A program made the position numbers and the translations under genes. From positions 98,201,451-98,265,450 of the forward strand of contig CM068825.1 in NCBI GenBank assembly GCA_028554795.2: 64,000 nt of DNA, written 5' to 3'. A model generated the notes under the pieces. It saw only the letters and a list, made by a program, of their open reading frames with translations. It did not search any database and had not been told where the DNA came from. Below are positions 10,927-64,000 of this stretch, one piece after another; position 1 is the first letter of the stretch, and each line of letters begins with the position of its first letter. The DNA comes from Sinohyriopsis cumingii (taxonomy: Eukaryota > Mollusca > Bivalvia > Unionida > Unionidae).

Positions 10927-10930
<4 letters not shown>

Positions 10931-35445: not shown

Positions 35446-35552
35446 TTTAGAAAAAGCTTGCCGATTTCACTAAACATTTCAAATACTTGGGGAATTCAAA
35501 TTTGAAAAAAAACCACAATGTTTTCTGAAATATTTTAGACAAAATTCATCAT

Positions 35553-35571: not shown

Positions 35572-35574
35572 TTT

Positions 35575-36147
<573 letters not shown>

Positions 36148-36150
<3 letters not shown>

Positions 36151-37548
36151 CTGCTAGCTGCATTAGTGTATTGTTCTGAGGGAGGCACTTAATCGTAACT
36201 TCCCTTGGGTAGCCCGCTGCGGTGATTCTCTCGAGCGATTCTGTTACTTGTACATGTATATATAAAAACTTGTACATGTATGTATAAGTCTCTGCCTCCA
36301 ACATTCATGTCTGAAATCAACTCTAGACCGATTCACGGGAAGCAAACTCAACTCAAAACATTACTGAGTGGCATATACCATAATTTTCATGTTTGTTATC
36401 GAACGGAAATAAAATATATGTAATCTTCGCCAGTTGTATAATACAGAGAAACAGACTCAAAAAGACGTCCATGTTAAGCAGGGCAAAAGTTTACATACCC
36501 AAACATAAATTTAACATTAAGCCGCCATTTTTGACAAGTCAGTGTGGTTAGACTTAATTTAGTGGGCTGAGTTTATGTTTTCTGGTTATATGGCAGTATT
36601 TTATTCAGACAGAATACTGGTTCCAATTGTAATATGGTTTTGAGATATGGGAAATGCATATGTCACAGTGATATACAGAGATATGGGAAATGCATATGTT
36701 ACAGTGATATACAGAGTGCATACTGTTTTGATGATGTATAATTTCCATGTTGAAAGCGGGTACCTCCATTTTCATGTGCCATCGGATATATGGCAGAGTA
36801 CATTATTAAATATGTATATTAAATGGATGATCACCTTTTTCTCACGATCAGTAAAACAATTGACGTTTCAGTCATATACATACTTGGTAGTCAATATTTT
36901 CAATTAGAATGACCGATATGTACTACTGGCAAAATTATAATTGTACGCTTTAGCAAAGATTTAACCTGCTTTACTTCATCCACTGTTTACAGCAATTTTC
37001 AAATAATCTTTATACGGGACTCAGTTTTTTTCAATTATTGTCAGCAAAAAGAAAATAAGATACTGCGCAACAAAGCAAACAATTTAATAAAAGCTCATCG
37101 TACCCTTAAATATTTTCTGTCGTTTCCATGCATTTTTTATTTTACCACAGTGTGATTCCTGATTCATAAAAGAGTATTGTTTCCGTCATTGTGTATGGTA
37201 CACAATTATGGCATTATAATGATTATACTAATAATTAAATAATCCTAGTTTAATGACTATCTGTGTACCTCTGTTTATAGTGATTATTTGTTGATTATGG
37301 GGAGTCGGTGCTGGTAAGATATTTCTCAGTTAACTAATATCTAGAAGCAGAAGTCATAATGTATAGTATTCGCGAGACTTTACGATAACATGGATTAGTT
37401 TAATAAAATCGACCCTCCTTAATTTCGTAAGAAAAGGAATTATCTGGATATTCTAACATATACCTGTTCAGTAATTTGAGATAGAATAATTCTTTCTATT
37501 AGGTGTTTGGATTATGTTTTAGTGCATGTTATGTGTGTATGTGTGTGT
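36148..37548. other. Intergenic DNA with one 36 bp tandem pair
   Basis: A 36 bp unit (agatatgggaaatgcatatg...) is present twice in a row at 36643-36714 with one difference. No gene is recognised in the remainder. Confidence 0.45.
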
Positions 37549-37853
37549 GATTTGGATTCTTAGCGTAACTTTAACAATTGTTCAGTCATATCGCTACGAT
37601 GTAAGCAGTGTGACAGTTTATAGTGATATCTAGCACTGGATCATAATGCCGCAGACATGTAACATGTACCCAATCACATTAACCTGACGCCAGGCCGACC
37701 AGTCCTAAAACTAACCTCTTAATAATGAGCGCCAAGCGAGGCAGCTGTTAGTACCATTTTTAGAAGTCTTTGGTATAACTCGGCCGGAGTTCAAACCCGC
37801 GACCTCCTGCATCTGAGGCGGACTCTCTAACCACCAGGCCACCCGAGCGGTCC
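37549..37853 (-). mobile_element. tRNA-derived SINE, copy 3
   Basis: Same family and orientation. The tRNA-like head occupies about 37,780-37,853, with gagttcaaacccgc at the B-box position. A (TG)n tract abuts the tail, as in copy 1. Possible decayed duplications agtgcatgtt and agtacatgtc flank it. Confidence 0.85.
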
Positions 37854-39690
37854 AGTACATGTCGTAAAGTACAGCTCTATTGACTGAAAAGGCTTACTGA
37901 TGAGTCATGCGGACGTGAAGCAAACAACAACAAGAACAAACAACATGCAATTATGAAATTAGGGTCTTGTAAATATTGGGTCATTAGTGATTTGAGGAAA
38001 ATTGTTGGTGGTATTCGCGCGTTTAAGAACCCTTCATTTGACAGATTATTGTCCTGATGTCCTTTGAAAAAGAGGAAACACGAAACTCAAGCTAGACGTG
38101 ATCGTGAGATCCAATGAGCGTTAAAATAACAACAACAATAATAATAATAATAATAATAATAAGAAGAAGAAGAAGAAGAAGGAGAAGAAGAAGAACAATT
38201 CATAGTCTGTACTAAATATATGTGATTTTTATTTTTGATTGTTTCCAACAGGTAACATGGCGTTAAATCCAAACAGCAACTTCTGTTAAAAGTCGAAATT
38301 TAAATATGGCGAAATTGGCACTTTCCCATACATTGCAATTGACAAGTCAACCCGCTATGCAGATGAGGCGTCTAACCAAACTTCTCGAGATATAATATCG
38401 TTGATATTATAAAGAGAAACACCATTTTCGTATATGTTACAATTTTATCTTACTTGGATTCCCAAATATAACAGATGTTTCCTACATTTTTAAATTTCAT
38501 TATAAATAACCCAGAACATATTAGAATAGTCTATAATGGCACTGTGACCTGTATCAATCCAAGTGTGGTTGGAATTTTGATCATAGTTCAGCTTGGGAAA
38601 AAACGCATTAAATATAATATATTGAGAAATCATTGAAGGTCTGACCGCATAGCCAAGGCCTGTACACACTTCTTCCCCCGCCACCCACTCCATAGCAGTA
38701 AAAAGTAAGCTTTTCTATGTTTCTATGAAATCTTGCTTACTGTTTTGTCTATGTGCACTAATTTTAGACAGCTGTCTTACATGGATGAAGAGGATATTTA
38801 AGCTTATAGTTGTTGAATCAGATGATACAGACTAGGCTGATGGTGGTGGACCGGTGGTGCGTTTCCGCATAGGGTGATTCCTGTAAATAGCGATGTATAT
38901 GCACGAACATACCTTCCTATTGATCTTTTTTCTCTCAGTAAAAGAAAGATGCATAATACAACCAGCCGTAGTTAGCGTTAAAGAAATACAGCTGGTATAA
39001 TTTAAATGCATTAAATATTTCCATTACTACTTATTCATAAATCGATAGACTTTACAGTCAGAAAAGTCAGCACCACGAACAAAGATAGGATGAATACTAA
39101 ATTTACAGTAATTACGTGTCGTATTAATTAGTTAGTTAAAACCATTACGTTAAAAAAGCGAAGTTAGTGTTAAGTACAATGTTTATCATTACACGTCTAC
39201 ACGTCCTTTACGGTCTTAACATATAAATCTAGCCATCATATTCGCATTTTCCGGTATGATGCACAGCAATGTTTCATTGATTCTGTTTATCTTGCACTTC
39301 CCCGATACTTATTTTAGTTTATGATTGATCCGTCCTTCTTATCAATTGCTAATTATTTAAACTTACGAACATAAGTGCCGTCAATAGAACGCATTGTAAA
39401 GCTATCGAAAGACGAGATCTAAATTTCAAAAACTAAATGGATACTTAAATAAAAACTGAGCAGAAATTGAAGGGGTCCAGCGAACGCACGGGTCTAATAA
39501 ATGTAATTTTGATACCATTTCATTTTCTGCATCTTTATCTAGTTAACTTTGTTATCTTCGATTTCCCCCTTTCTTGTTTCTATTATTGGAACTTTGCGTT
39601 TCTTCTTCGAATTTAAATTCCGGGCACATTTTATCATGTATAATGTATATCGCATTAAAATTTTATCATGTATAATGTATATAGCATTAA
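37854..39690. other. Intergenic DNA with a trinucleotide tract
   Basis: A run of aac, aat and aag/agg triplets lies at about 38,126-38,196. A direct repeat (ttttatcatgtataatgtat...) occurs twice at about 39,630-39,690. No gene is recognised. Confidence 0.45.
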
Positions 39691-42100: not shown

Positions 42101-43012
42101 GAGCATGACGAGGCGAGTAGATTGTCCTGGTCATCCTGCCAAAGTAAACTGAAGCACAATGACACCTTTTCCATGCTGACACCAAAGCTATACCCTCTGT
42201 ACAACTAGCAGGTTAGCAATTACTGATCAAACCCTCGGCCATATCCTGCTACTACGACGTAAATACGGCAGGTGGAGCAATATTGATTCTTATTGTCTGT
42301 CGAACAGTATCCACATAAACCGTCGCACAATGTCAGTTTCCTAAAAGATACACCGATCTTTACAAGCTGATTCTTCTCTTTAAGCATGATGTGAAGACAG
42401 TAAACTATTATCGATGTTATGTTGGTACCCAACAGTTTTAGAATTACTGTGTAGGAAAAGCTTATGAAGAAACATGACTTTTAACAGATGAAAAACTCAC
42501 CCTGCTCATGTGTAGAGATTGCACTTCCTAAAAGAGAACGCATCTCTATCTACCCAAAATCATAAGTCGCTCAGGAGAATTGCACTCATATGGAACGGCG
42601 CAAGACCTATCGTATCAATCAGACCATGCTAGCTGATACTGCATCATCACATCTAAATCACCACTAATACACAACATCGCACAGTCGGTCCTTTAAAACT
42701 TCATAAACTAATTCTAATTAAATAGATTTTGTTCAAATCAGCACGCAAACGACTTCTAACGAATGCTTCTGGATGCTAATACTGCACATGATGAGTCCCA
42801 ATCAGTTTTCTAAAAGAAAAACAAAAGAGACATCTGCTTTCACATATGAATATTTTAATCAAACTACATGATTATAAACTTTTAACAATCTCAATGCACC
42901 GAGCTATCGGAAACATCGGTGCAACTTTCTTTATTCCACCCATTAGACAACAACGTTCGTAACCCAACTATTCAAACGTAATTGGGATGCGGCGGTTACC
43001 CGCCCGACTGTA
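42101..43012. other. Intergenic DNA, no feature seen
   Basis: No gene or repeat recognised. Confidence 0.4.
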
Positions 43013-45407
43013 CCATTAATGGTTCTGATATGGTATAGTATGGGGCCCAAAAGGAATTAACATTACTGCACTGTTATTGGTCCCAATCAAAATGTAACAT
43101 GGTTGCATCAGTATAGAAAATTATAGGAATTTAACATTACCGCACAATTGGGACTGGCGGGGGATTAGGACCTATGGCAATTTGACATTGCTGCATAGTT
43201 CGAGAGTCTGTGCGCCAAATTAAATATAATATTAGGAAGCCACTATGGGTCCTCTGGGAAATGATCAAGGAGATATGCAGCCTTATACATGTACAGTACG
43301 GCATATGCTCAAATGTTTTCACACTATAGGCATGGTGGTCAATGAAGTTACAATTTGCTTACCTCGGTAAAATAACGCAGTTAATTTCACAAGAAACGGA
43401 TACAGAACCAAATTTAGAGAAGATTTTGAAAATAATTCAGTTCAAAAGGTTTTCTTCAGTCCGTATTATATGCAAAATGTAGAAAGTGTGTTACGATAGT
43501 TGCAGTAGCTAATGCAAGTGGAACAAATATGTACCAAGTCGTGGCGACTGTGTGAGTACAAGCAAACAATAAAGACCTAAGGTAGGCCTTGATAGAAAAG
43601 CTTAACATTGATGTACGTTTCCACGCTAAGGATAGGGACCAGGAAAATGTATTTAAACAAAGTGGTGGTGTACGAGTACAGTAAGTGGATAAGGATCTAA
43701 TTGATGCTGCCATATAAAAGGCATAAGGTTTGTGAATGATTTGCAACAGTTGACAAGGATCTAGCAAAAATGTTTATACAGAGTATTGACAGTTGTGTGA
43801 ATCAAACTAGGGCGCAAGGACCTAAGGAAACCTCTCACACGAAAGGCATGAAATGACTATGTACGGTTCTAAACAGTGGACAATGATCTATGAAATGTAC
43901 TTATAAAAATACACGTAGAAGACAGGAACCAAAGGAACGCTGTTATAGAAATATCATAGCGTGTATGTATCATGATATTCATTAATTAAAAGCTGTGGCA
44001 ATCGTACGAGTACAAATAGCGGACAAGCACCTAAGGAAGACAGCTATGTAACATGTATATAGTTTTTGTGTGGCTTCAAAAAGTGCACAACGTATCTAGG
44101 ATATGCGTTTATTCAAAACCTTTCACAAAATCCTCGAGATGCTACAGGCAGCGGACAAGGACTAAAGAAAGGTCTCTGTAGGAAAGGCCCAATCTTTGGG
44201 TACGATTCCATGCATGAGCAAGGACCTTAAATAGGTACTTACTCCAAGCAGATGTATGAGTAAAAGGACCTGGGAAACGTCTCTGTACAATTTCAAACAC
44301 AGCAAAGAAAATATTAAAAATTCTGGCGCTTGAATATTAGCAAGGACGGTACTCTAAGGAAGACTTCTATAGACAATGCATGACATATATGTATGATTTC
44401 AAGCAAAGGACAAAGATATAGTGTATGTATGTATACAAAACCGTGGCAATTGTTTGAAGATAGAGAAAAGAATAGTTAAATGAGGTCAGTATAAACAGGC
44501 GTAATTTTTTGTGTATGCGTTCAAACAGTGTACAAAGATCTAGAGTACATATGCAAACAAACCCTTGATTCTGTTATGAATACTGGCAATAAGCAAAGAG
44601 CTAGAGTAGGTTTCTTTTCAAAAGCCAGAGCATTGTGTTTGACTATATAACCATGACTTTTCTAAATGATTTTTAGCTGTGGACGAAGATCTTGGATAGG
44701 GATATTCACACACAATGGTGATTGTACGAATGCAGGCTGTGCGCATTGGCGTAGGCCATGTTTCTATTCAATGGTGTGGGTGTTTGATTGCAGGTGTGGA
44801 GAAGCACCATATTCGTGCCTTTCTTGCAAGTAAACGTGCATTTTGTATATGAATTCAAACAATGAACAAAGTTATACGATAGTTATGCATACAAAAGCCG
44901 TGACGACTGTATGAGAATGGGCAGCGGCAAAGGAATGCTGCTATATGCAAGGCGGGGTTAATTATATAATTTTAAACAGTGAACAAAGGCCCTTGTATAA
45001 GATTCAAGATATAAATGTGCTCGTTGTTTAATATAACCTAGATCTGTGGACAAGGATCTTGTATATGTTTCTATATAAGGGGCTTTATTTTCTGTGAGTA
45101 CGCTGATTGGATAAAGACCTAGGAGTAGGTTTCATTGATAAAACATTTCAGCTTTGTGTATAATTTCAAAGCGTAGCAACGGTCTAGGAACACCTATGCA
45201 AAGGGTTGACTAATGTAATGATCAATGATGTAATAAAATGTTATAAAGAATAGGTTTTGCCTTGGTACATGACTGCAAAGACTGGACGTGACCTAATAAA
45301 GTTTTTCTATAAAATGGCTGGATATGTACTATACGAGTATAGACATTAGACAAGGATACAGATCCATTCGCATAGAAAAGGCTTTGTAATGTACAAGCAG
45401 AGATACT

Positions 45408-46771
45408 GGACAAGGATCCAGGCACATTTGCATTGAAAAGGCTTCGTAATCTATTTGATTACAGAAGGCGGACAAGGATCCAGGTACATTTGAATTGAAA
45501 AGGCTTCGTAATTTATTTGATTACAAAAGGTGGACAAGGATCCAGGTACATTTGCATTGAAAAGGCTTCGTAATCTATTTGATTACAAAAGGTGGACAAG
45601 GATCCAGGTACATTTGCATTGAAAAGGCTTCGTAATCTATTTGATTACAAAAGGTGGACAAGGATCCAGGTACATTTGCATTGAAAAGGCTTCGTAATCT
45701 ATTTGATTACAAAAGGTGGACAAGGATCCAGGTACATTTGCATTGAAAAGGCTTCGTAATCTATTTGATTACAAAAGGTAGACAAGGATCCAGGTACATT
45801 TGCATTGAAAAGGCTTCGTAATCTATTTGATTACAGAAGGCGGACAAGGATCCAGGTACATTTGCATTGAAAAGGCTTCGTAATCTATTTGATTACAAAA
45901 GGTGGACAAGGATCCAGGTACATTTGCATTGAAAAGGCTTCGTAATCTATTTGATTACAAAAGGTGGACAAGGATCCAGGTACATTTGCATTGAAAAGGC
46001 TTCGTAATCTATTTGATTACAAAAGGTGGACAAGGATCCAGGTACATTTGCATTGAAAAGGCTTCGTAATCTATTTGATTACAAAAGGTGGACAAGGATC
46101 CAGGTACATTTGCATTGAAAAGGCTTCGTAATCTATTTGATTACAAAAGGTGGACAAGGATCCAGGTACATTTGCATTGAAAAGGCTTCGTAATCTATTT
46201 GATTACAAAAGGTGGACAAGGATCCAGGTACATTTGCATTGAAAAGGCTTTGTAATCTATTTGATTACAAAAGGTGGACAAGGATCCAGGTACATTTGCA
46301 TTGAAAAGGCTTCGTAATCTATTTGATTACAAAAGGTGGACAAGGATCCAGGTACATTTGCATTGAAAAGGCTTCGTAATCTATTTGATTACAAAAGGTG
46401 GACAAGGATCCAGGTACATTTGCATTGAAAAGGCTTCGTAATCTATTTGATTACAAAAGGTGGACAAGGATCCAGGTACATTTGCATTGAAAAGGCTTCG
46501 TAATCTATTTGATTACAAAAGGTGGACAAGGATCCAGGTACATTTGCATTGAAAAGGCTTCGTAATCTATTTGATTACAAAAGGTGGACAAGGATCCAGG
46601 TACATTTGCATTGAAAAGGCTTCGTAATCTATTTGATTACAAAAGGTGGACAAGGATCCAGGTACATTTGCATTGAAAAGGCTTCGTAATCTATTTGATT
46701 ACAAAAGGTGGACAAGGATCCAGGTACATTTGCATTGAAAAGGCTTTGTAATCTATTTGATTACAAAAGGT
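45408..46771. repeat. 62 bp tandem repeat, 22 copies
   Basis: Exactly 22 head-to-tail units of 62 bp. Each contains ggacaaggatccaggtacat, then ttgcattgaaaaggcttcgt, then aatctatttgattacaaaag, gt. Interior units are almost identical. Variants sit near the left edge (agaaggc for aaaaggt) and the right edge (ctttgt for cttcgt). Every unit has a GGATCC site. It arose from one monomer of the degenerate ~60 bp satellite. Confidence 0.97.
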
Positions 46772-47400
46772 GCACAAGGCTCATGTTAAATTATAGGAAT
46801 TACAAACTAACATGGGTATAGCTTTTGATAAACGCATACATTTGACAACTGAGCACATATATGCATATGATTATTTCAAGTTATTCATTCGTCCTAATTA
46901 TAATATTTACATATTTCAAGTAAGCAGCAAATTATATACATCATAACGACATAGATAAATATTCTATCTGACACGAATATGGTTCTCAGTAGAAGCGAAA
47001 ATGAAAGAGATTATATCTTAACATATGTTTTTCTAATCCACTAAAGTATAACCTCTGTTGGAAATTTGGACCAGATTACGCTGATGTCTTAGTATATCCT
47101 CTCTCTCTCTGTCCCTAACTATCAAGTGGATGGTGGATTAATTTTAAACCAGAGACTTCCAAACTGTCAAGTTGTTTAGAGATAAAATAAAAATAAAAAT
47201 ATATTGAGCATCATAAACATAAATAGAATTATTGTTTTTCAAAAGAAAACAATATTAACAGTTTTTGTATATATATCGAATAAACTTGCTCTAATAATAA
47301 AAAATATAGAAATTCAGATTTCTAAAAACAATTACTTTAGATGGACAAATTTGTTAACGTGCACAGTGTTTAACCTGAAATGTAATTTTAAGACTGTTCT

Positions 47401-47585
47401 GATCATTACGTTACAGGATATAATTTGATGACTTTCTGATCATTACGTTACAGGATATAATTTGATGACTTTCTGATCATTACGTTACAGGATATAATTT
47501 GATGACTTTCTGATCATTACGTTACAGGAAACAATTTGATGACTTTTTGATCCTTACGTTACAGGATATACTTTGATGACTTTCT
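47401..47585. repeat. 37 bp tandem repeat, 5 copies
   Basis: Units starting at 47401, 47438, 47475, 47512 and 47549 read gatcattacgttacaggata, taatttgatgactttct. Two or three degenerate units occur at the matching place in segment 1 (about 29,960-30,050). Confidence 0.9.
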
Positions 47586-47800
47586 TATTATTAATTGTTG
47601 GCTATATGAAGTTATGTTCAACGTCTTTAAATTTCACAGTGACCGTAAGGACTCTACCGACATACAAGTAAATACCCTCTGGAAATACCCTCTGTATGGC
47701 TTCTTTTTTGCATTAAAAACTGTGAAAATCACTATGCTATATGTAAGTATGAGACGTATAATTTTATATGCTTTTCAATTTTAAATGTACTTGTGATGTT

Positions 47801-48659
47801 AAGAATGTATGCCTATTTCTCTGAAAAATCTGTTAAGAAATATTTCTCTTATGAAGAGGACGGGGAAAGTATGTGCCACGTACATTTGTGGATACGTGAG
47901 GGATGAGTTGATCATAGGACACATGAACAATTCTTTCTTTTAGTAAAACCTGTTGATTTTATGTAACTGTAGGAGGTAAAATTATAATTAAATATATCAT
48001 GATGGTACGCTTATGTTAAAATGCAGGAATGATGTGCAATTTAAAAAATAATGAACATCAAACGATACAGATTTTTTTCAGATATTCAGTATCGCACTAA
48101 ATATCTTTCCCGTCTCTAGAGGTCATCAAATGTTATCTGGCATAAAGACATTGGCAATACAGAGAATGTGACAGTTTTAGAAAAGCTTGCTAAATATGGG
48201 TCAAATTACATCTTTCAATGGTGGATATGCTTGCTCTTTCAGATTATACGCTCTCGTGTGAGTGTGTGGTTGTGTTTGTGCAATATATTAAAAGAAATGC
48301 CAAAAACTGTTAAGATTAACAGGACTTTGCAACTTATTCTGACAAAGTGACGATAACTTAATGTTCAGGCTGTTTAAGAGCAGGAACTTATTCAGTTTGA
48401 GTTAACTGACCTACCTTTGTAATATAACCGATGTAGTATGTTCAGAAACAATTTTTTTTTCCAAAGGGAGCAAACCCATCTAGTTCAATTTTATGTTAGT
48501 AGGGAGAGATATGTGCAAAGTACATCAGATTCTGATTATTTTTTTACTCAAATCAAAACAATATTCTATTTTTATACATGGAATTTAAGAAAATGTATCA
48601 CTTTGTATTACTATTTTGTCAACGAAGAAAGGACAAGGATAGAGATGACATAAACACAT
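47801..48659. other. AT-rich spacer before the macrosatellite
   Basis: No gene recognised. Open frames at 48168-48350 and 48438-48653 show no domain. Confidence 0.4.
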
Positions 48660-50245
48660 ATTAAACAATGAGGACATAAATACACATTAATCTAGGAGGA
48701 TATAAATACACATCAATCAAGGAGAACATAAACACACATTAATCTAGGAGGACATAAACACACATTAATCTAGGAGGACATGAACACACATTAATCTAGG
48801 AGGACATAAACACATATTAATCTAGGATATAAACACACATTAATCTAGGAGGACATAAACACACATTAATCTAGGAGAACATAAATACAAATTAATCTAG
48901 GAGGACATAAATACAAATTAATCTAGGAGGACATAAACACACATTAATCTAGGAGGACATAAACACACATTAATCTAGGAGGACATAAACACATACTAAT
49001 CTAGGAGGACATAAATACATATTAATCTAGGAGGACATAAACACACATTAATCTAGGAGAACATAAACACACATTAATCTAGGAGGACATAAACACACAT
49101 TAATCTAGGAGGACATAAACACACATTAATCTAGGAGGACATAAACACACATTAATCTAGGAGGACATAAACACATATTAATCTAGGATATAAACACACA
49201 TTAATCTAGGAGGACATAAACACACATTAATCTAGGAGAACATAAATACAAATTAATCTAGGAGGACATAAATACAAATTAATCTAGGAGGACATAAACA
49301 CACATTAATCTAGGAGGACATAAACACACATTAATCTAGGACATAAACACACATTAATCTAGGAGGACATAAACACACATTAATCTGGGAGAACATAAAC
49401 ACATATTAATCTAAGATATAAAGACAAATTAATCTAGGAGGACATAAACACACATTAATCTAGGATATAAATACAAATTAATCTAGGAGGACATAAACAC
49501 ACATTAATCTAGGAGGACATAAACACACATTAATCTAGGAGGACATAAACACATATTAATCTAGGATATAAACACACATTAATCTAGGAGGACATAAACA
49601 CACATTAATCTAGGAGAACATAAATACAAATTAATCTAGGAGGACATAAACACACATTAATCTAGGAGGACATAAACACACATTAATCTAGGAGAACATA
49701 AACACATATTAATCTAGGATATAAAGACAAATTAATCTAGGAGGACATAAACACACATTAATCTAGGATATAAATACAAATTAATCTAGGAGGACATAAA
49801 TACAAATTAATCATGTAGGACATAAACACACATTAATCTAGGAGGACATAAACACACATTAATCTAGGAGAGCATAAACACATATTAATCTAGGATATAA
49901 AGACAAATTAATCTAGGAGGACATAAACACACATTAATCTAGGATATAAATACAAATTAATCTAGGAGGACATAAACACACATTAATCTAGGATATAAAT
50001 ACAAATTAATCTAGGAGGACATAAACACACATTAATCTAGGAGGACATAAACACACATTAATCTAGGAGGACATAAACACACATTAATCTAGGAGGACAT
50101 AAACACACATTAATCTAGGATATAAAAACACATTCATCTAGGAAGACATAAACACACATTAATCAAGGAGAACATAAATACAAATTAATTTAGGAAGACA
50201 TAAACACACATTAATCTAGGAGAACATAAACACACATTATTCTAG
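48660..50245. repeat. 26/23 bp minisatellite, first stretch
   Basis: Units of 26 bp (aggaggacataaacacac, attaatct) mix with 23 bp variants in which aggaggacat is aggatat. From about 48,900 onward it aligns with the last ~1.35 kb of the next satellite stretch at the constant offset of 8,867. Further left the alignment fades, so this is the left edge of the macrosatellite. Confidence 0.95.
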
Positions 50246-50813
50246 CACATGCTAACTACTTCCTAGCATGTAGAGTATTACATGACACTAAAGAGATAAA
50301 TAAAATCACCTATGTACAATAGCTGACTTAAGCCATAAACCCAGCTACAAAATAACTATTTAAATATGCACAAAATTTAACCAATAACAATTTTTGCGCA
50401 TACCAAGTAACGTCTTCTGGTCAGGAAAGATCTTCAAGCGGCGATGACTGACATATTGCAGGTAGTTTGTATCTTGAGAGCCATTATAATTGCATCTGCT
50501 TCATGGTTACTTCAGACAACTCCAGAAATATTACGTGTACTTTCAAAGGAAACACTGGTCAACAGTGAAATCATTACTGACTTGAAAAGGCCCTAATCTG
50601 TAGTATTTTGGTGTGCCGAACACGAATATAACCGTGAAAAATTTGTATTGGCTCTCGTTTTGAAGATATTCATATACCTCATTTTCTATGTTTCACTGTG
50701 TAAATTTCTCCAGTAGGACTGCAGCAACATCCGGAATAATGATGTAACATTGCATAATACCATCATGCTCACATCATCCACAGTTGATTGCATCATTTTC
50801 TGATGCAATGCAA

Positions 50814-50933
50814 TACTAATGCCATGCGGCTGCTGAAGTAAGTTGACGTCAGCAGTGTACTATACATGTGTAGGCCTATTATACTAATGCCAGGCGGCTG
50901 CTGAAGCTGACGTAAGCAGTGTACTATATAAAG
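50814..50933 (+). promoter_or_regulatory. Promoter with duplicated CRE-like module and TATA box
   Basis: A ~68 bp module is present twice (from 50,814 and 50,882), each with gcggctgctgaag, a CRE-type site and agcagtgtactata. The first CRE-like site is the perfect palindrome TGACGTCA (50844-50851) and the second TGACGTAA (50908-50915). Only the second module ends in a real TATA box, TATATAAA (50925-50932), about 115 bases before the ATG. Initiation near 50,955-50,960 is expected from TATA spacing. A 9 bp-stem hairpin (attgcatca / tgatgcaat) lies just upstream. Confidence 0.65.
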
Positions 50934-51046
50934 CCCAATCAGATAGGTTCAGCATTTAAAATATTTTAGACGTTGTGCGAGACAGTTCAAGCTACTGTTA
51001 CATAAAACTTATTATTTTATCCATTTACGTACAATAAAGAACAGTA

Positions 51047-52735
51047 ATGCCTCGAAAGTGTGTTAATACCGCGGACAATTTTTGCTATATTTGTGGGGAA
51101 GTGACATTTGCCAACCAGAAGAAAAGTATCAATTCTCAAGTGAAGAAGGCATATCATCTTTACTTCGGATGCAAGGTTGGTGACCAAGACAAGCCTTGGG
51201 CTCCGCATATATGCTGTGCTACATGTACAACACAGCTTTCACAGTGGTTGAATTGCAAAAGGTCATCAATGCCGTTTGCAGTCCCAATGGTGTGGAGAGA
51301 GCCAAGCAACCACCTAAATGACTGTTACTTCTGCTTGGTTCCTCCTCTTTCCGGCGGAATAACGAAGCGAAAGAAGTCGAGAATAGTCTACCCAAACATT
51401 CCGTCTGCATTGAGACCAGTTCCACATGGTGAGGGACTTCCTATTCCAGAATCTCCAGCAGAATATTCTCTTGATTCATCTGACGAAGACAAAGGTGAGT
51501 CGACCTGTTCTTCTCCTGGTCCATCAGCATGCAGTGATCCAGATTTTCACTGTGGTGCATCATCAACCCCACACAGAATAACACAGGAAGAACTAAATGA
51601 CCTGATTCGTGATTTGGACTTATCAAAGAACAAGGCAGAATTGCTAGGATCAAGACTCCAACAATGGAATCTTCTAGAAGAAGATGTCACAATTACTGCA
51701 TATCGAAAGCGCCACCAGCAATTGGAGCCTTTCTTCAGAAAGGAAAGTAATCTGATATTCTGTTCCGATATTGAGGGCCTCATGAATGCTTTAAAAATCA
51801 CTCATGACCCACAAGAATGGAGACTATTTGTGGACTCTTCGAAACTGAGTCTCAAGGCTGTGCTTTTGCACAATGGAAACATTCTTCCATCTATTCCAGT
51901 AGCGTATGCTGTCCACATGAAAGAGACATACGATAACTTAAGGCAGCTACTGAATTCCATTGATTATAACAAGTACAGCTGGCACCTCTGTGGTGATTTG
52001 AAGGTAGTTGCCCTTTTAATGGGACTGCAGCAAGGATATACAAAATACATGTGTTTCTTATGCGAGTGGGATAGCCGAGCAAGGGAAATGCACTACATGA
52101 GGAAGGAATGGACTCACAGGCAGAATGTAGCCATTGGAGAGAAGAATATCCAACACCCAGCTCTGGTTGAGGCTCAGAAAATCTTGCTACCACCCCTTCA
52201 CATCAAACTAGGTTTGATGAAGAACTTCGTGAAAGCCATTGACCGGACTTTGCCAGCATTCCGATACCTGCATGAAAAATTCCCTCGACTCAGCGAAGTA
52301 AAGATTAAAGAGGGAGTTTTTGTGGGTCCTCAGATTCGAGAGCTTTTCAAAGATGACCGGTTCAACAACTTGCTGGAAGGTGACGCGAAACAAGCATGGA
52401 ATGCTTTTCGCCTAGTTTTTACAAACTTCCTCGGAAATGTTAGGGCAGAAAACTATAAGGAACTAGTAGAAGACATGTTGATGAAGTATAAGAAACTTGG
52501 CTGCAATATGTCTCTAAAGATTCACTTCCTTCATTCCCATTTGGATTTCTTTCCTAGCAACTGTGGTATTGTTAGTGATGAACATGGCGAACGTTTTCAT
52601 CAAGATATCGCAACAATGGAACAAAGATACCAGGGAAAATGGTCCACTACAATGCTGGCTGACTACTGCTGGACACTCCTCAGAGATGCTCCCGAACAGC
52701 TGTACAAGAGACAGGCGAAGAAATCTAAGATGTAG
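51047..52735 (+). CDS. Transposase-like zinc-binding protein, copy 1 (562 aa, intact)
   Basis: Single-exon frame of 562 codons. I recognise the wording as a multi-copy family of uncharacterised proteins found across invertebrates, probably derived from a DNA transposon; I cannot name the superfamily. Residues 13-60 form a Cys-rich putative zinc module (C13-x2-C16, C42, C56/C57/C60), with a further CYFC pair at 93-96. Residues 105-180 are a Ser/Pro/Glu-rich linker with a basic TKRKKSR patch. Residues 215-560 form the conserved catalytic-like part. D263 (FVDSSK), D317 (GDLKVV) and an acidic residue in DEHGERFHQD (511-520) are candidates for an RNase H-fold DDE set, and C336/C339 form another CxxC. 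The start is the first ATG after the TATA box. The frame is intact, which suggests recent selection or recent duplication. An AATAAA lies at 53315-53320. Confidence 0.85.
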   Translation: MPRKCVNTADNFCYICGEVTFANQKKSINSQVKKAYHLYFGCKVGDQDKPWAPHICCATCTTQLSQWLNCKRSSMPFAVPMVWREPSNHLNDCYFCLVPPLSGGITKRKKSRIVYPNIPSALRPVPHGEGLPIPESPAEYSLDSSDEDKGESTCSSPGPSACSDPDFHCGASSTPHRITQEELNDLIRDLDLSKNKAELLGSRLQQWNLLEEDVTITAYRKRHQQLEPFFRKESNLIFCSDIEGLMNALKITHDPQEWRLFVDSSKLSLKAVLLHNGNILPSIPVAYAVHMKETYDNLRQLLNSIDYNKYSWHLCGDLKVVALLMGLQQGYTKYMCFLCEWDSRAREMHYMRKEWTHRQNVAIGEKNIQHPALVEAQKILLPPLHIKLGLMKNFVKAIDRTLPAFRYLHEKFPRLSEVKIKEGVFVGPQIRELFKDDRFNNLLEGDAKQAWNAFRLVFTNFLGNVRAENYKELVEDMLMKYKKLGCNMSLKIHFLHSHLDFFPSNCGIVSDEHGERFHQDIATMEQRYQGKWSTTMLADYCWTLLRDAPEQLYKRQAKKSKM

Positions 52736-53649
52736 TCAATGACTTGATTTTTTATAGGTAGGCTATTACAGTTGACCTTTTACTATTGGAATGCATTTCG
52801 TTATGTAAACATTAATTTCTTGCAGATTACAAAAAAACTAGAGCCAATTTTGCAATTTGACTGTCATATTCGTGTTCAGCACATAAAAATTGATAAGAAT
52901 TGACTAATTTTATTTCAGTAACATGACTTTTGTAAAAATTTGTTGTCCAGTGAAATGAGACTGTAATTTTACTTCCGATGTAAATTTTGCAACATGAACA
53001 CAGATGACTAGTCCTAACCTATACAGTATGTTGATGCATATAGAAGGAAAACACTTTTCTACCAGACAAGATCGCCTAGCCCAATGTTGCGGATGATGAC
53101 ATCTAAGAGTGGCAGATAAATTACTTTCACTCCCTCAAACACTCCCCCATAGTTTAATCTCAGTAATACGTTATTTGCCAGTACTGTTTAGCTAAATTAT
53201 ATCATTAACGATATAGGCCAGGGGATCTTTAAAGAATTTAAGAACGTCTAATTTGCAAACCTATAACCTTTAATGGTGGAGATCGGACAAGATTTATCCT
53301 CAAAACCGAAGAGTAATAAATGTATTACTGAAGTAGGAGAAGTATGCAAGGATTATTGCATTTCCTAGTACAATAATTGCTGGAGAAAGAAAAGAATTTG
53401 TGAATCGCAGACGTAAACCCTCTTATATTATGGAATGAACCAACGATTATCAACCAGGCCTCTGAAAGATGGCTACTTGAGCACCAACTTGAATTAAAGT
53501 TGGGTGTACTACAGGAGGTGTCCCAGTGGATGACATCACCCTCTCCGGAACTAATTGCTTTGGAAAGATGGGATGACACAATAGTCTGTATTGCCTTACA
53601 GTTACCTCCTCGTCATGGAGTCATATATGCGGATTACTACTTTGCACAA

Positions 53650-56600
53650 TCAAAGAGAACATAAACACACATTAATCTAGGAGGACATAAACACACATTA
53701 ATCTAGGAGGACATAAACACACATTAATCTAGGAGGACATAAACACATATTAATCTAGGAGGACATAAATACATATTAATCTAGGAGGACATAAACACAC
53801 ATTAATCTAGGAGAACATAAACACACATTAATCTATGAGGACATAAACACACATTAATCTAGGAGGACATAAACACACATTAACCTAGGAGGACAGAAAC
53901 ACATATTAATCTAGGATATAAACACACATTAATCTAGGAGGACATAAACACACATTAATCTAGGAGAACATAAATACAAATTAATCTAGGAGGACATGAA
54001 TACAAATTAATCTAGGAGGACATAAACACACATTAATCTAGGAGGACATAAACACATATTAATCTAGGAGGACATAAATACATATTAGTCTAGGAGGACA
54101 TAAACACACATTAATCTAGGAGAACATAAACACACATTAATCTAGGAGGACATAAACACATATTAATCTAGGATATAAACACACATCAATCTAGGAGGAC
54201 ATAAACACACATTAATCTAGGAGAACATAAATACAAATTAATCTAGGAGGACATAAATACAAATTAATCTAGGAGGACATAAACACACATTAATCTAGGA
54301 GTACATAAACACACATTAATCTAGGAGGACATAAACACATATTAATCTAGGATATAAACACACATTAATCAAGGAGGACATAAACACAAATTAATCTAGG
54401 AGAACATAAATACAAATTAATCTAGGAGGACATAAATACAAATTAATCAAGGAGGACATAAACACACATTAATCTAGGAGGACATAAACACACATTAATC
54501 TAGGATATAAATACAAATTAATCTAGGAGGACATAAATACAAATTAATCATGGAGGACATAAACACACATTAATCTAGGAGGACATAAACACACATTAAT
54601 CTGGGAGAACATAAACACATATTAATCTAGGATATAAAGACAATTTAATCTAGGAGGACATAAACACACATTAATCTAGGATATCAATACAAATTAATCT
54701 AGGAGAACATAAACACACATTAATCTAGGAGGACATAAACACACATTAATCTAGGAGGACATAAACACATATTAATCTAGGATATAAACACACATTAATC
54801 TAGGAGGACATAAACACACATTAATCTAGGAGAACATAAATACAAATTAATCTAGGAGGACATAAATACAAATTAATCTAGGAGGACATAAACACACATT
54901 AATCTAGGAGGACATAAACACACATTAATCTAGGATATAAATACAAATTAATCTAGGAGGACATAAATACAAATTAATCATGGAGGACATAAACACACAT
55001 TAATCTAGGAGGACATAAACACACATTAATCTGGGAGAACATAAACAAAAATTAATCTAGGATATAAAGACAAATTAATCTAGGAGGACATAAACACACA
55101 TTAATCTAGGATATAAATACAAATTAATCTAGGAGGACATAAACACACATTAATCTAGGAGGACATAAACACACATTAATCTAGGAGGACATAAACACAC
55201 ATTAATCTAGGAGGACATAAACACATATTAATCTAGGATATAAACACACATTAATCTAGGAGGTCATAAACACACATTAATCTAGGAGAACATAAATACA
55301 AATTAATCTAGGAGGACATAAATACAAATTAATCTAGGAGGACATAAACACACATTAATCTAGGAGGACATAAACACACATTAATCTAGGAGGACATAAA
55401 CACATATTAATCTAGGATATAAACACACATTAATCTAGGAGGACATAAGCACAAATTAATCTAGGAGAACATAAATACAAATTAATCCAGGAGGACATAA
55501 ACACACATTAATCTAGGAGGACATAAACACACATTAATCTAGGACATAAACACACATTAATCTAGGATATAAATATAAATTAATCAAGGAGGACATAAAC
55601 ACACATTAATCTAGGAGGACATAAACACACATTAATCTAGGAGAACATAAACACATATTAATCTAGGATATAAAGACAAATTAATCTAGGAGGACATAAA
55701 CACACATTAATCTAGGATATAAATACAAATTAATCTAGGAGGACATAAACACACATTAATCTAGGAGGACATAAAAACACATTAATCTAGGAGGACATAA
55801 ACACATATTAATCTAGGAGGACATAAATACATATTAATCTAGGAGGACATAAACACACATTAATCTAGGAGAACATAAACACACATTAATCTAGGAGGAC
55901 ATAAACACACATTAATCTAGGAGGACATAAACACACATTAACCTAGGAGGACATAAACACATATCAATCTAGGATATAAACACACATTAATCTAGGAGGA
56001 CATAAACACACATTAATCTAGGAGAACATAAATACAAATTAATCTAGGAGGACATAAATACAAATTAATCTAGGAGGACATAAACACACATTAATCTAGG
56101 AGGACATAAACACATATTAATCTAGGAGGACATAAATACATATTAATCTAGGAGGACATAAACACACATTAATATAGGAGAACATAAACACACATTAATC
56201 TAGGAGGACATAAACACATATTAATCTAGGACATAAACACACATTAATCTAGGAGGACATAAACACACATTAACCTAGGAGGACATAAACACATATCAAT
56301 CTAGGATATAAACACACATTAATCTAGGAGGACATAAACACACATTAATCTAGGAGAACATAAATACAAATTAATCTAGGAGGACATAAATACAAATTAA
56401 TCTAGGAGGACATAAACACACATCAATCTAGGAGTACATAAACACACATTAATCTAGGAGGACATAAACACATATTAATCTAGGATATAAACACACATTA
56501 ATCTAGGAGGACATAAACACAAATTAATCTAGGAGAACATAAATACAAATTAATCTAGGAGGACATAAATACAAATTAATCAAGGAGGACATAAACACAC

Positions 56601-59112
56601 ATTAATCTAGGAGGACATAAACACACATTAATCTAGGATATAAATACAAATTAATCTAGGAGGACATAAATACAAATTAATCATGGAGGACATAAACACA
56701 CATTAATCTAGGAGGACATAAACACACATTAATCTGGGAGAACATAAACACATATTAATCTAGGATATAAAGACAATTTAATCTAGGAGGACATAAACAC
56801 ACATTAATCTAGGATATCAATACAAATTAATCTAGGAGGACATAAACACACATTAATCTAGGAGGACATAAACACACATTAATCTAGGAGGACATAAACA
56901 CATATTAATCCAGGATATAAACACACATTAATCTAGGAGGACATAAACACACATTAATCTAGGAGAACATAAATACAAATTAATCTAGGAGGACATAAAT
57001 ACAAATTAATCTAGGAGGACATAAACACACATTAATCTAGGAGGACATAAACACACATTAATCTTGGATATAAATACAAATTAATCTAGGAGAACATAAA
57101 TACAAATTAATCATGGAGGACATAAACACACATTAATCTAGGAGGACATAAACACACATTAATCTGGGAGAACATAAACACATATTAATCTAGGATATAA
57201 AGACAAATTAATCTAGGAGGACATAAACACACATTAATCTAGGATATAAATACAAATTAATCTAGGAGGACATAAACACACATTAATCTAGGAGGACATA
57301 AACACATATTAATCTAGGATATAAACACACATTAATCTAGGAGGTCATAAACACACATTAATCTAGGAGAACATAAATACAAATTAATCTAGGAGGACAT
57401 AAATACAAATTAATCTAGGAGGACATAAACACACATTAATCTAGGAGGACATAAACACACATTAATCTAGGAGGACATAAACACATATTAATCTAGGATA
57501 TAAACACACATTAATCTAGGAGGACATAAGCACAAATTAATCTAGGAGAACATAAATACAAATTAATCCAGGAGGACATAAACACACATTAATCTAGGAG
57601 GACATAAACACACATTAATCTAGGACATAAACACACATTAATCTAGGATATAAATATAAATTAATCAAGGAGGACATAAACACACATTAATCTAGGAGGA
57701 CATAAACACACATTAATCTAGGAGAACATAAACACATATTAATCTAGGATATAAAGACAAATTAATCTAGGAGGACATAAACACACATTAGTCTAGGATA
57801 TAAATACAAATTAATCTAGGAGGACATAAACACACATTAATCTAGGAGGACATAAACACACATTAATCTAGGAGGACATAAATACATATTAATCATGGAG
57901 GACATAAACACACATTAATCTAGGAGAACATAAACACACATTAATCTAGGAGGACATAAACACACATTAATCTAGGAGGACATAAACACACATTAATCTA
58001 GGAGGACATAAACACACATTAATCTAGGAGGACATAAACACATATTAATCTAGGATATAAACACACATTAATCTAGGAGGACATAAACACACATTAATCT
58101 AGGAGAACATAAATACAAATTAATCTAGGAGGACATAAATACAAATTAATCTAGGAGGACATAAACACACATTAATCTAGGAGGACATAAACACACATTA
58201 ATCTAGGACATAAACACACATTAATCTAGGAGGACATAAACACACATTAATCTGGGAGAACATAAACACATATTAATCTAAGATATAAAGACAAATTAAT
58301 CTAGGAGGACATAAACACACATTAATCTAGGATATAAATACAAATTAATCTAGGAGGACATAAACACACATTAATCTAGGAGGACATAAACACACATTAA
58401 TCTAGGAGGACATAAACACATATTAATCTAGGATATAAACACACATTAATCTAGGAGGACATAAACACACATTAATCTAGGAGAACATAAATACAAATTA
58501 ATCTAGGAGGACATAAACACACATTAATCTAGGAGGACATAAACACACATTAATCTAGGAGAACATAAACACATATTAATCTAGGATATAAAGACAAATT
58601 AATCTAGGAGGACATAAACACACATTAATCTAGGATATAAATACAAATTAATCTAGGAGGACATAAATACAAATTAATCATGTAGGACATAAACACACAT
58701 TAATCTAGGAGGACATAAACACACATTAATCTAGGAGAGCATAAACACATATTAATCTAGGATATAAAGACAAATTAATCTAGGAGGACATAAACACACA
58801 TTAATCTAGGATATAAATACAAATTAATCTAGGAGGACATAAACACACATTAATCTAGGATATAAATACAAATTAATCTAGGAGGACATAAACACACATT
58901 AATCTAGGAGGACATAAACACACATTAATCTAGGAGGACATAAACACACATTAATCTAGGAGGACATAAACACACATTAATCTAGGATATAAAAACACAT
59001 TCATCTAGGAAGACATAAACACACATTAATCAAGGAGAACATAAATACAAATTAATTTAGGAAGACATAAACACACATTAATCTAGGAGAACATAAACAC
59101 ACATTATTCTAG
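53650..59112. repeat. 26/23 bp minisatellite, complete inter-core stretch (5.46 kb)
   Basis: Over 200 units of the same 26/23 bp repeat as the first stretch, with aataca, cacaaa, catggagg and gatatcaat variants. The variant pattern recurs: for example, the rare agacaattta word at 54,638 reappears 2,133 bases later at 56,771, followed in both by the rare gatatcaat. A higher-order repeat of about 2.1 kb is therefore present inside the stretch. No genes. Confidence 0.95.
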
Positions 59113-59680
59113 CACATGCTAACTACTTCCTAGCATGTAGAGTATTACATGACACTAAAGAGATAAATAAAATCACCTATGTACAATAGCTGACTTAAGC
59201 CATAAACCCAGCTACAAAATAACTATTTAAATATGCACAAAATTTAACCAATAACAATTTTTGCGCATACCAAGTAACGTCTTCTGGTCAGGAAAGATCT
59301 TCAAGCGGCGATGACTGACATATTGCAGGTAGTTTGTATCTTGAGAGCCATTATAATTGCATCTGCTTCATGGTTACTTCAGACAACTCCAGAAATATTA
59401 CGTGTACTTTCAAAGGAAACACTGGTCAACAGTGAAATCATTACTGACTTGAAAAGGCCCTAATCTGTAGTATTTTGGTGTGCCGAACACGAATATAACC
59501 GTGAAAAATTTGTATTGGCTCTCGTTTTGAAGATATTCATATACCTCATTTTCTATGTTTCACTGTGTAAATTTCTCCAGTAGGACTGCAGCAACATCCG
59601 GAATAATGATGTAACATTGCATAATACCATCATGCTCACATCATCCACAGTTGATTGCATCATTTTCTGATGCAATGCAA

Positions 59681-59800
59681 TACTAATGCCATGCGACTGC
59701 TGAAGTAAGTTGACGTCAGCAGTGTACTATACATGTGTAGGCCTATTATACTAATGCCAGGCGGCTGCTGAAGCTGACGTAAGCAGTGTACTATATAAAG
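59681..59800 (+). promoter_or_regulatory. Promoter of copy 2 (CRE-like pair and TATA box)
   Basis: Same layout as copy 1: TGACGTCA at 59711-59718, TGACGTAA at 59775-59782 and TATATAAA at 59792-59799. One base in the first module differs (atgcgactg instead of atgcggctg). The regulatory words themselves are unchanged. Confidence 0.65.
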
Positions 59801-59913
59801 CCCAATCAGATAGGTTCAGCATTTAAAATATTTTAGACGTTGTGCGAGACAGTTCAAGCTACTGTTACATAAAACTTATTATTTTATCCATTTACGTACA
59901 ATAAAGAACAGTA

Positions 59914-61602
59914 ATGCCTCGAAAGTGTGTTAATACCGCGGACAATTTTTGCTATATTTGTGGGGAAGTGACATTTGCCAACCAGAAGAAAAGTATCAAT
60001 TCTCAAGTGAAGAAGGCATATCATCTTTACTTCGGATGCAAGGTTGGTGACCAAGACAAGCCTTGGGCTCCGCATATATGCTGTGCTACATGTACAACAC
60101 AGCTTTCACAGTGGTTGAATTGCAAAAGGTCATCAATGCCGTTTGCAGTCCCAATGGTGTGGAGAGAGCCAAGCAACCACCTAAATGACTGTTACTTCTG
60201 CTTGGTTCCTCCTCTTTCCGGCGGAATAACGAAGCGAAAGAAGTCGAGAATAGTCTACCCAAACATTCCGTCTGCATTGAGACCAGTTCCACATGGTGAG
60301 GGACTTCCTATTCCAGAATCTCCAGCAGAATATTCTCTTGATTCATCTGACGAAGACAAAGGTGAGTCGACCTGTTCTTCTCCTGGTCCATCAGCATGCA
60401 GTGATCCAGATTTTCACTGTGGTGCATCATCAACCCCACACAGAATAACACAGGAAGAACTAAATGACCTGATTCATGATTTGGACTTATCAAAGAACAA
60501 GGCAGAATTGCTAGGATCAAGACTCCAACAATGGAATCTTCTAGAAGAAGATGTCACAATTACTGCATATCGAAAGCGCCACCAGCAATTGGAGCCTTTC
60601 TTCAGAAAGGAAAGTAATCTGATATTCTGTTCCGATATTGAGGGCCTCATGAATGCTTTAAAAATCACTCATGACCCACAAGAATGGAGACTATTTGTGG
60701 ACTCTTCGAAACTGAGTCTCAAGGCTGTGCTTTTGCACAATGGAAACATTCTTCCATCTATTCCAGTAGCGTATGCTGTCCACATGAAAGAGACATACGA
60801 TAACTTAAGGCAGCTACTGAATTCCATTGATTATAACAAGTACAGCTGGCACCTCTGTGGTGATTTGAAGGTAGTTGCCCTTTTAATGGGACTGCAGCAA
60901 GGATATACAAAATACATGTGTTTCTTATGCGAGTGGGATAGCCGAGCAAGGGAAATGCACTACATGAGGAAGGAATGGACTCACAGGCAGAATGTAGCCA
61001 TTGGAGAGAAGAATATCCAACACCCAGCTCTGGTTGAGGCTCAGAAAATCTTGCTACCACCCCTTCACATCAAACTAGGTTTGATGAAGAACTTCGTGAA
61101 AGCCATTGACCGGACTTTGCCAGCATTCCGATACCTGCATGAAAAATTCCCTCGACTCAGCGAAGTAAAGATTAAAGAGGGAGTTTTTGTGGGTCCTCAG
61201 ATTCGAGAGCTTTTCAAAGATGACCGGTTCAACAACTTGCTGGAAGGTGACGCGAAACAAGCATGGAATGCTTTTCGCCTAGTTTTTACAAACTTCCTCG
61301 GAAATGTTAGGGCAGAAAACTATAAGGAACTAGTAGAAGACATGTTGATGAAGTATAAGAAACTTGGCTGCAATATGTCTCTAAAGATTCACTTCCTTCA
61401 TTCCCATTTGGATTTCTTTCCTAGCAACTGTGGTATTGTTAGTGATGAACATGGCGAACGTTTTCATCAAGATATCGCAACAATGGAACAAAGATACCAG
61501 GGAAAATGGTCCACTACAATGCTGGCTGACTACTGCTGGACACTCCTCAGAGATGCTCCCGAACAGCTGTACAAGAGACAGGCGAAGAAATCTAAGATGT
61601 AG
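59914..61602 (+). CDS. Transposase-like zinc-binding protein, copy 2 (562 aa, intact)
   Basis: Same protein as copy 1 except residue 188, where Arg (cgt) is His (cat), in the linker helix ELNDLI-x-DLDLSKNK. All Cys pairs and the candidate catalytic acids D263, D317 and the DEHGERFHQD box are kept. Start, promoter spacing and 3' flank are as in copy 1. Such identity means either very recent duplication, homogenisation by unequal exchange, or an assembly duplication. Confidence 0.85.
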   Translation: MPRKCVNTADNFCYICGEVTFANQKKSINSQVKKAYHLYFGCKVGDQDKPWAPHICCATCTTQLSQWLNCKRSSMPFAVPMVWREPSNHLNDCYFCLVPPLSGGITKRKKSRIVYPNIPSALRPVPHGEGLPIPESPAEYSLDSSDEDKGESTCSSPGPSACSDPDFHCGASSTPHRITQEELNDLIHDLDLSKNKAELLGSRLQQWNLLEEDVTITAYRKRHQQLEPFFRKESNLIFCSDIEGLMNALKITHDPQEWRLFVDSSKLSLKAVLLHNGNILPSIPVAYAVHMKETYDNLRQLLNSIDYNKYSWHLCGDLKVVALLMGLQQGYTKYMCFLCEWDSRAREMHYMRKEWTHRQNVAIGEKNIQHPALVEAQKILLPPLHIKLGLMKNFVKAIDRTLPAFRYLHEKFPRLSEVKIKEGVFVGPQIRELFKDDRFNNLLEGDAKQAWNAFRLVFTNFLGNVRAENYKELVEDMLMKYKKLGCNMSLKIHFLHSHLDFFPSNCGIVSDEHGERFHQDIATMEQRYQGKWSTTMLADYCWTLLRDAPEQLYKRQAKKSKM

Positions 61603-62516
61603 TCAATGACTTGATTTTTTATAGGTAGGCTATTACAGTTGACCTTTTACTATTGGAATGCATTTCGTTATGTAAACATTAATTTCTTGCAGATTACAAA
61701 AAAACTAGAGCCAATTTTGCAATTTGACTGTCATATTCGTGTTCAGCACATAAAAATTGATAAGAATTGACTAATTTTATTTCAGTAACATGACTTTTGT
61801 AAAAATTTGTTGTCCAGTGAAATGAGACTGTAATTTTACTTCCGATGTAAATTTTGCAACATGAACACAGATGACTAGTCCTAACCTATACAGTATGTTG
61901 ATGCATATAGAAGGAAAACACTTTTCTACCAGACAAGATCGCCTAGCCCAATGTTGCGGATGATGACATCTAAGAGTGGCAGATAAATTACTTTCACTCC
62001 CTCAAACACTCCCCCATAGTTTAATCTCAGTAATACGTTATTTGCCAGTACTGTTTAGCTAAATTATATCATTAACGATATAGGCCAGGGGATCTTTAAA
62101 GAATTTAAGAACGTCTAATTTGCAAACCTATAACCTTTAATGGTGGAGATCGGACAAGATTTATCCTCAAAACCGAAGAGTAATAAATGTATTACTGAAG
62201 TAGGAGAAGTATGCAAGGATTATTGCATTTCCTAGTACAATAATTGCTGGAGAAAGAAAAGAATTTGTGAATCGCAGACGTAAACCCTCTTATATTATGG
62301 AATGAACCAACGATTATCAACCAGGCCTCTGAAAGATGGCTACTTGAGCACCAACTTGAATTAAAGTTGGGTGTACTACAGGAGGTGTCCCAGTGGATGA
62401 CATCACCCTCTCCGGAACTAATTGCTTTGGAAAGATGGGATGACACAATAGTCTGTATTGCCTTACAGTTACCTCCTCGTCATGGAGTCATATATGCGGA
62501 TTACTACTTTGCACAA

Positions 62517-64000
62517 TCAAAGAGAACATAAACACACATTAATCTAGGAGGACATAAACACACATTAATCTAGGAGGACATAAACACACATTAATCTAGG
62601 AGGACATAAACACATATTAATCTAGGAGGACATAAATACATATTAATCTAGGAGGACATAAACACACATTAATCTAGGAGAACATAAACACACATTAATC
62701 TATGAGGACATAAACACACATTAATCTAGGAGGACATAAACACACATTAACCTAGGAGGACAGAAACACATATTAATCTAGGATATAAACACACATTAAT
62801 CTAGGAGGACATAAACACACATTAATCTAGGAGAACATAAATACAAATTAATCTAGGAGGACATGAATACAAATTAATCTAGGAGGACATAAACACACAT
62901 TAATCTAGGAGGACATAAACACATATTAATCTAGGAGGACATAAATACATATTAGTCTAGGAGGACATAAACACACATTAATCTAGGAGAACATAAACAC
63001 ACATTAATCTAGGAGGACATAAACACATATTAATCTAGGATATAAACACACATCAATCTAGGAGGACATAAACACACATTAATCTAGGAGAACATAAATA
63101 CAAATTAATCTAGGAGGACATAAATACAAATTAATCTAGGAGGACATAAACACACATTAATCTAGGAGTACATAAACACACATTAATCTAGGAGGACATA
63201 AACACATATTAATCTAGGATATAAACACACATTAATCAAGGAGGACATAAACACAAATTAATCTAGGAGAACATAAATACAAATTAATCTAGGAGGACAT
63301 AAATACAAATTAATCAAGGAGGACATAAACACACATTAATCTAGGAGGACATAAACACACATTAATCTAGGATATAAATACAAATTAATCTAGGAGGACA
63401 TAAATACAAATTAATCATGGAGGACATAAACACACATTAATCTAGGAGGACATAAACACACATTAATCTGGGAGAACATAAACACATATTAATCTAGGAT
63501 ATAAAGACAATTTAATCTAGGAGGACATAAACACACATTAATCTAGGATATCAATACAAATTAATCTAGGAGAACATAAACACACATTAATCTAGGAGGA
63601 CTTAAACACACATTAATCTAGGAGGACATAAACACATATTAATCTAGGATATAAACACACATTAATCTAGGAGGACATAAACACACATTAATCTAGGAGA
63701 ACATAAATACAAATTAATCTAGGAGGACATAAATACAAATTAATCTAGGAGGACATAAACACACATTAATCTAGGAGGACATAAACACACATTAATCTAG
63801 GATATAAATACAAATTAATCTAGGAGGACATAAATACAAATTAATCATGGAGGACATAAACACACATTAATCTAGGAGGACATAAACACACATTAATCTG
63901 GGAGAACATAAACAAAAATTAATCTAGGATATAAAGACAAATTAATCTAGGAGGACATAAACACACATTAATCTAGGATATAAATACAAATTAATCTAGG
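62517..64000. repeat. 26/23 bp minisatellite, third stretch, runs off the window
   Basis: It follows the stretch beginning at 53,650 base for base at offset 8,867 (one difference noticed at 63,602, T for A). It shows that the macrosatellite continues beyond the window. Confidence 0.95.

Follow-up and report, generated by a model that had tools for sequence, protein, structure and literature searches.

A DNA transposon of 2,400 bp, intact and carrying an open transposase gene, was very probably duplicated together with its surroundings in the genome of Sinohyriopsis cumingii when the minisatellite arrays on either side of it misaligned and exchanged, which makes the locus a local duplication and not a new macrosatellite. 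The doubling of the transposase gene is thereby a by-product of minisatellite instability and exchange. The window, that is, the whole stretch of 64,000 nucleotides that we analysed (C2:98201451-98265450), holds two copies of the transposon, and the contig beyond it holds a third, empty copy of the segment into which the transposon went. All features described below lie on the forward strand, and positions past the end of the window are given as window-equivalents.

Geometry of the repeated segment

The earlier note had described a 3.4-kb core with a 562-codon gene plus 5.46 kb of minisatellite as a repeated whole, and we reproduced both the coordinates and the open reading frames. With the limits chosen there, the two near-identical core copies, each of about 3.4 kb, lie at 50246-53650 and 59113-62517, spaced by exactly 8,867 bp and separated by about 5.46 kb of 26/23-bp minisatellite. 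The spacing had been presented as a constant offset; it is exact between these two cores, but two cores cannot show constancy, and the third starts 11,868 bp after the start of the second. The claim that only three differences had been noticed along more than 13 kb did not hold either, since the span that can be compared at this offset within the window amounts to only 6,104 bp (49030-55133 against 57897-64000), with three substitutions (50829, 51609 and 54735), or to 6,192 bp with eight substitutions, five of them extra, when the comparison begins 88 bp earlier.

Apart from the transposon, core 1 consists of a left part of 307 bp (50246..50552) and a right part (52956..53646) that ends at the motif TTTGCA (53641-53646). 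The left part recurs in core 2 (59113..59419), in the third core (window-equivalent 70981-71287) and in two downstream paralogous loci; the right part of core 2 occupies 61820..62513, including the 3-bp target duplication. The constant segment associated with the arrays is this non-transposon DNA of about 1 kb.

The transposon and its transposase

Copy 1 of the transposon (50553..52952) has the ends CACTGG...CCAGTG and is flanked by a target site duplication, AAA, on the left (50550..50552) and on the right (52953..52955). Copy 2 (59420..61819) differs from it by two substitutions in 2,400 bp. The terminal inverted repeats are imperfect and extend over roughly 115 bp each (about 50553-50667 and 52834-52952), with the extreme ends CACTGGTCAACA and CACTGGACAACA agreeing at 11 of 12 bases. 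Among the 72 CAC/GTG pairs that flank the reading frame, two reach 11/12, and only the pair 50553/52952 has a 3-bp duplication. The inner inverted repeats score 50, whereas none of 300 dinucleotide shuffles exceeds 35; the outer extension is weak by itself, its score being reached by 7 of 500 shuffles, and we accept it because of the other genomic copies and the empty sites described below. Shorter ends at 50621/52874, at the inner CACGAATAT repeat, were rejected, their flanks being GAA and TTC, which is no duplication. We likewise dropped the idea that the core has a Helitron-like terminus on its left, suggested by a CTAG next to a short palindrome, given the CAC...GTG ends and the empty sites.

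Two features of the Chapaev superfamily are present, namely terminal inverted repeats of the form CAC...GTG and a target site duplication of 3 to 4 bp. By contrast, the TWA duplication between A and T of the Chapaev3 group was not found: the duplication here is AAA, preceded by G and followed by T. We therefore file the element at the level of the Chapaev superfamily, without a subgroup. It is a recently landed, ordinary DNA transposon.

The two 562-codon reading frames (copy 1 at 51047..52735, copy 2 at 59914..61602) are both open and differ in coding terms only by the replacement of R188 with H in copy 2, at a residue nearly invariant among 27 aligned proteins. The proposal that the gene is transposon-encoded is borne out, as it lies within the 2,400-bp element with its ends and target duplications. 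The motifs listed for Chapaev transposases in the account of PMC4079192, C(2)C, LH and H(4)H, correspond here to C336/C339, L384-H385 and H493/H498, and all six residues form invariant columns in the alignment of 27 proteins. The predicted fold is RAG1/Transib-like. With the 562-aa protein as query, no Pfam model matched, and the 27 aligned proteins gave only weak matches by single members (best zf-AD, 0.0017; RAG1_imp_bd, 0.32). A sequence search of solved structures returned only weak unrelated matches, the best of them an RNA polymerase subunit (E 0.019), and a search of viral_contigs and genome_contigs found no relatives. The predicted fold, the motifs, the ends and the target duplications make cut-and-paste movement of its own transposon the most likely role of the protein.

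Empty sites and other copies in the genome

The third core (window-equivalent 70981-71977) contains no transposon. Its left part reaches as far as 71287, while the right part already starts at 71285, and this 3-bp overlap, which corresponds to the AAA duplication, leaves a single AAA, so that the third core is an exact empty site. Past TTTGCA, the third core, which ends at 71977, continues into unique flank, as do both paralogous loci; cores 1 and 2 turn to minisatellite immediately after the same motif (53646/53647 and 62513/62514). The two paralogous cores are found further along the contig, at positions 98382534 and 98471174, which places them about 110 and 199 kb past the third core. The regions fetched around them, L064 and L065, each comprise one array (40 and 79 parsed units, respectively), one empty core and a right flank matching at about 97%, and their cores differ from core 1 by 3.2%. 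A single AAA occupies all three empty sites. The left flank is present in L064 and absent from L065, which is therefore an incomplete copy of the ancestral arrangement. These two loci preserve that arrangement: an array, an empty core and the right flank. The third core may once have been occupied and have lost its transposon precisely; both its divergence from core 1 (7 differences in 991 positions, 0.71%) and the empty state of the two paralogous loci argue against such a loss.

We searched the whole genome assembly (2.90 Gb in 1,138 contigs) for further copies of the transposon and scored 40 of 88 candidates; three were at the locus and 37 elsewhere, the latter matching only from about the left end of the transposon. 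There are thus at least 37 other copies, on 17 contigs, and the genome contains at least 39 near-identical copies of the element. All 37 fetched copies span the element from end to end (one of them with a 38-base internal gap) at 99.1-99.7% identity to copy 1, their median pairwise difference is 0.33%, and 23 keep the 562-codon reading frame. AAA stands on both sides in 34 of the 37 (the exceptions are L023, L024 and L051), in a sample biased to copies with AAA on the left because the query contained it. The earlier note had named, beforehand, dispersal without the minisatellite 26-mer as the finding that would tell against its reading, and this is what we found for the gene: the 26-mer is absent from the 300-bp flanks of all 37 fetched copies on those 17 contigs.

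A chimeric minisatellite array

Three arrays of the 26/23-bp minisatellite separate and border the cores. Array 1 (48647..50245) has 62 parsed units and is degenerate at both edges. Array 2 (53647..59112) has 214, and array 3, which begins at 62514, runs through the end of the window at 64000 and on to window-equivalent 70980, has 332 in total. The observation that arrays 2 and 3 share the order of their variants was confirmed, as 56 of the 57 array-3 units parsed within the window are the same as in array 2. This likeness, however, does not extend over the whole of array 2, which is chimeric, array-3-like on its left and array-1-like on its right. Units 0-166 are identical to array 3 in 161 of 167 cases, one extra unit being allowed, whereas the 47 units 167-213 all match array 1, and just 8 of them match array 3. 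The switch from array-3 to array-1 type takes place in a tract of about 140 bp (57864..58004) where arrays 1 and 3 resemble each other; we regard this tract as the probable site of exchange. Within it, array 2 also carries a private two-base change (57895-57896).

Since array 2 combines array-3 and array-1 stretches, the 8,867-bp spacing would reflect one unequal exchange and no unit length; on the evidence of these unit sequences, it is best explained as set by the position of that exchange between minisatellite arrays. Arrays 2 and 3 start abruptly with standard units, in contrast with array 1 and its degenerate ends, as expected if the junction between core and array is a duplication breakpoint inside an array. 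Further expansions or contractions are needed to account for array lengths of 62, 214 and 332 units, and of 40 and 79 in the paralogous loci.

Order of events

Outside the transposon, cores 1 and 2 show no difference in 993 positions. Both local transposon copies have in common five alignment columns in 2,400 bp (about 0.21%) that none of the 37 other copies shows. Both local copies have the same flanks and target duplications, which implies that copy 2 arose by duplication and not by a second insertion. As read from the sequences, this order of divergence fits a duplication that came first, an insertion after it and an unequal exchange in recent time. Some of the five shared changes may have come from an unsampled source copy, so that the dating of the insertion step is soft.

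The starting state would have been one 26/23-bp array, one transposon-free segment of 1 kb and the right flank, a state seen in L064 and L065. An older tandem duplication would then have joined the right edge of the segment to the interior of the array, producing the order array-segment-array-segment; the junction is observed, and the event is what it suggests. Next, the 2,400-bp Chapaev-superfamily transposon entered the left segment with duplication of its AAA target, as the three empty sites show. Finally, and recently, the arrays before and after the transposon-bearing segment would have misaligned and exchanged within their shared tract at about 57,864-58,004, duplicating 8,867 bp, transposon included, and leaving the middle array chimeric. 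The chimeric array is there to be seen; that it arose by unequal crossover, and not by another recombination route, is our inference.

Alternative explanations

The most serious alternative is an artefact of assembly, in which core 2 and part of the arrays would have been duplicated falsely, by combining two haplotypes or by joining repeat reads wrongly. The comparison rests on one assembly, and two alleles could look as alike as cores 1 and 2 do, with no difference outside the transposon and two within it. Nevertheless, array 2 joins array-3 to array-1 sequence in a specific way and does not repeat one whole array, a few sites do distinguish the two copies, the contig reaches chromosome scale at 171 Mb and the third, more diverged core is present regardless. 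We consequently deem an artefact quite unlikely.

The reading put forward in the earlier note was that of a genuine macrosatellite, its unit measuring 8,867 bp, in which a transposon-derived gene forms the constant, single-copy part and gene dosage tracks the length of the array. The exact 8,867-bp distance between two cores with intact reading frames agrees with it, and the gene was indeed copied once with the array. Yet the uniform multi-kilobase head-to-tail units of a macrosatellite were not found at this locus, which has three cores at spacings of 8,867 and 11,868 bp, unequal arrays, and the transposon in two cores of the three. The next core along is empty, both paralogous loci are single arrays with empty cores, the transposon is dispersed elsewhere without the 26-mer in its flanks, and the position of the exchange accounts for the spacing. 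A macrosatellite is accordingly very improbable.

That the same transposon inserted independently into two neighbouring cores is hardly conceivable: near-identical copies are numerous and the cores present the same AAA target, but the five changes confined to the two local copies and the identity of the surrounding core speak for a single insertion. It is just as hard to believe that the local transposase gene was domesticated and its duplication selected for. Both reading frames are open, but so are 23 of the 37 other copies at the full 562 codons, so that openness here needs no selection and is uninformative; moreover, the only coding difference, R188H, falls on a nearly invariant residue, and both transposon ends and the target duplications are retained. 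The exchange between misaligned minisatellite arrays is thus the explanation that we retain.

Significance

For a natural case, the successive steps can be read at this locus with unusual clarity: a paralogous ancestral state, an exact empty site, an insertion and a chimeric minisatellite that places the exchange within about 140 bp. The locus carries a caution, too, as a window that cuts off a locus can give the false impression of a gene inside a macrosatellite. The protein itself represents a widespread animal transposase with a RAG1-like predicted fold that, as a query, is matched by no Pfam model. Unstable minisatellites might, more speculatively, serve as a non-transpositional amplifier of young autonomous transposons; the number of intact transposase genes at this locus would then vary between individuals by repeated unequal exchange, with extra copies diverging, as by R188H, yet still supplying transposase. 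We regard this broader idea as rather doubtful.

Comparison with known systems

As described in the relevant parts of Zhang et al. (2014, PMC4079192), Chapaev3 transposons, such as Garfield of Bombyx mori, resemble the present element in size (about 2.3-2.4 kb, with a transposase of about 556-562 aa), in the C(2)C, LH and H(4)H motifs, in the CAC...GTG ends and in the 3-bp target duplication. According to the same account, most Chapaev3 reading frames have a single exon, as here, whereas Garfield itself has two, and the target duplication of the group is TWA, in contrast with AAA here. The likeness of the protein to the RAG1/Transib transposase core (PDB 6xny, 6pqx) is one of predicted fold.

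The macrosatellites D4Z4 (DUX4) and RS447 (a deubiquitinating enzyme) are presented in the corresponding portion of PMC3018141 as tandem multi-kilobase segments, each with an open reading frame, in arrays of up to about 100 units; the locus studied here has three unequally spaced cores, with the gene in two. A closer parallel is offered by the tandem duplication of transposons and the formation of satellites through unequal crossover or non-allelic homologous recombination (NAHR), as reviewed in sections of PMC9659126 and PMC12628747. The cases treated there and the present locus have in common a tandem transposon copy produced by recombination between homologous repeats, with the difference that the recombining homology is provided here by the flanking minisatellite and not by the transposon copies themselves. 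The locus is, in this respect, another, well-resolved case of a transposon duplicated along these known lines.

Segmental duplications

Two stretches of the window, 42131–48620 and 34872–38058, recur elsewhere on C2, the contig that holds the window, near C2:98376000 (identity about 95–99%) and again near C2:98466000 (97%), that is, around the two paralogous loci L064 and L065, each with one array and one empty core. These repeated parts indicate that the transposon/minisatellite locus is a member of a segmental-duplication cluster on this single contig. Two other copies of the transposon in the same genome, L023 and L024, have the 8 flanking letters on either side of the element in common, which suggests that another segmental duplication took a transposon copy with it. 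Both lie on contig C21, with ~105 kb between them.

Other repeats and coding sequences

Ahead of the ORF, but still inside the left end of the transposon, a direct repeat of ~50 bp (50813–50864 and 50881–50928, 87% alike) lies just upstream of a TATATAAAG box; these units are possible promoter or transposase-binding repeats. A local duplication occupies 9401–12180, with offsets of 1,677 and 1,673 and an identity of 86–100%, counting only 100-base steps above 80%; (TA)n runs occur in or near it, at 10861 and 12526. Similar-looking repeats of 63 bp, the length of 21 codons, are found at four sites (6171–6304, 9620–9743, 11296–11424 and 13159–14277, the last with ~18 copies). A 62-bp minisatellite, its unit length indivisible by three, covers 45407–46779 (~22 copies, 98% matches), and a 48-bp one covers 23095–25066 (~42 copies), within which one frame is open for 169 codons (24297–24806). 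The window also contains a 365-codon reverse transcriptase ORF at 1135–2229 (PF00078, E 1.3e-33), with 62% identity to its top-scoring homolog in a homolog search.
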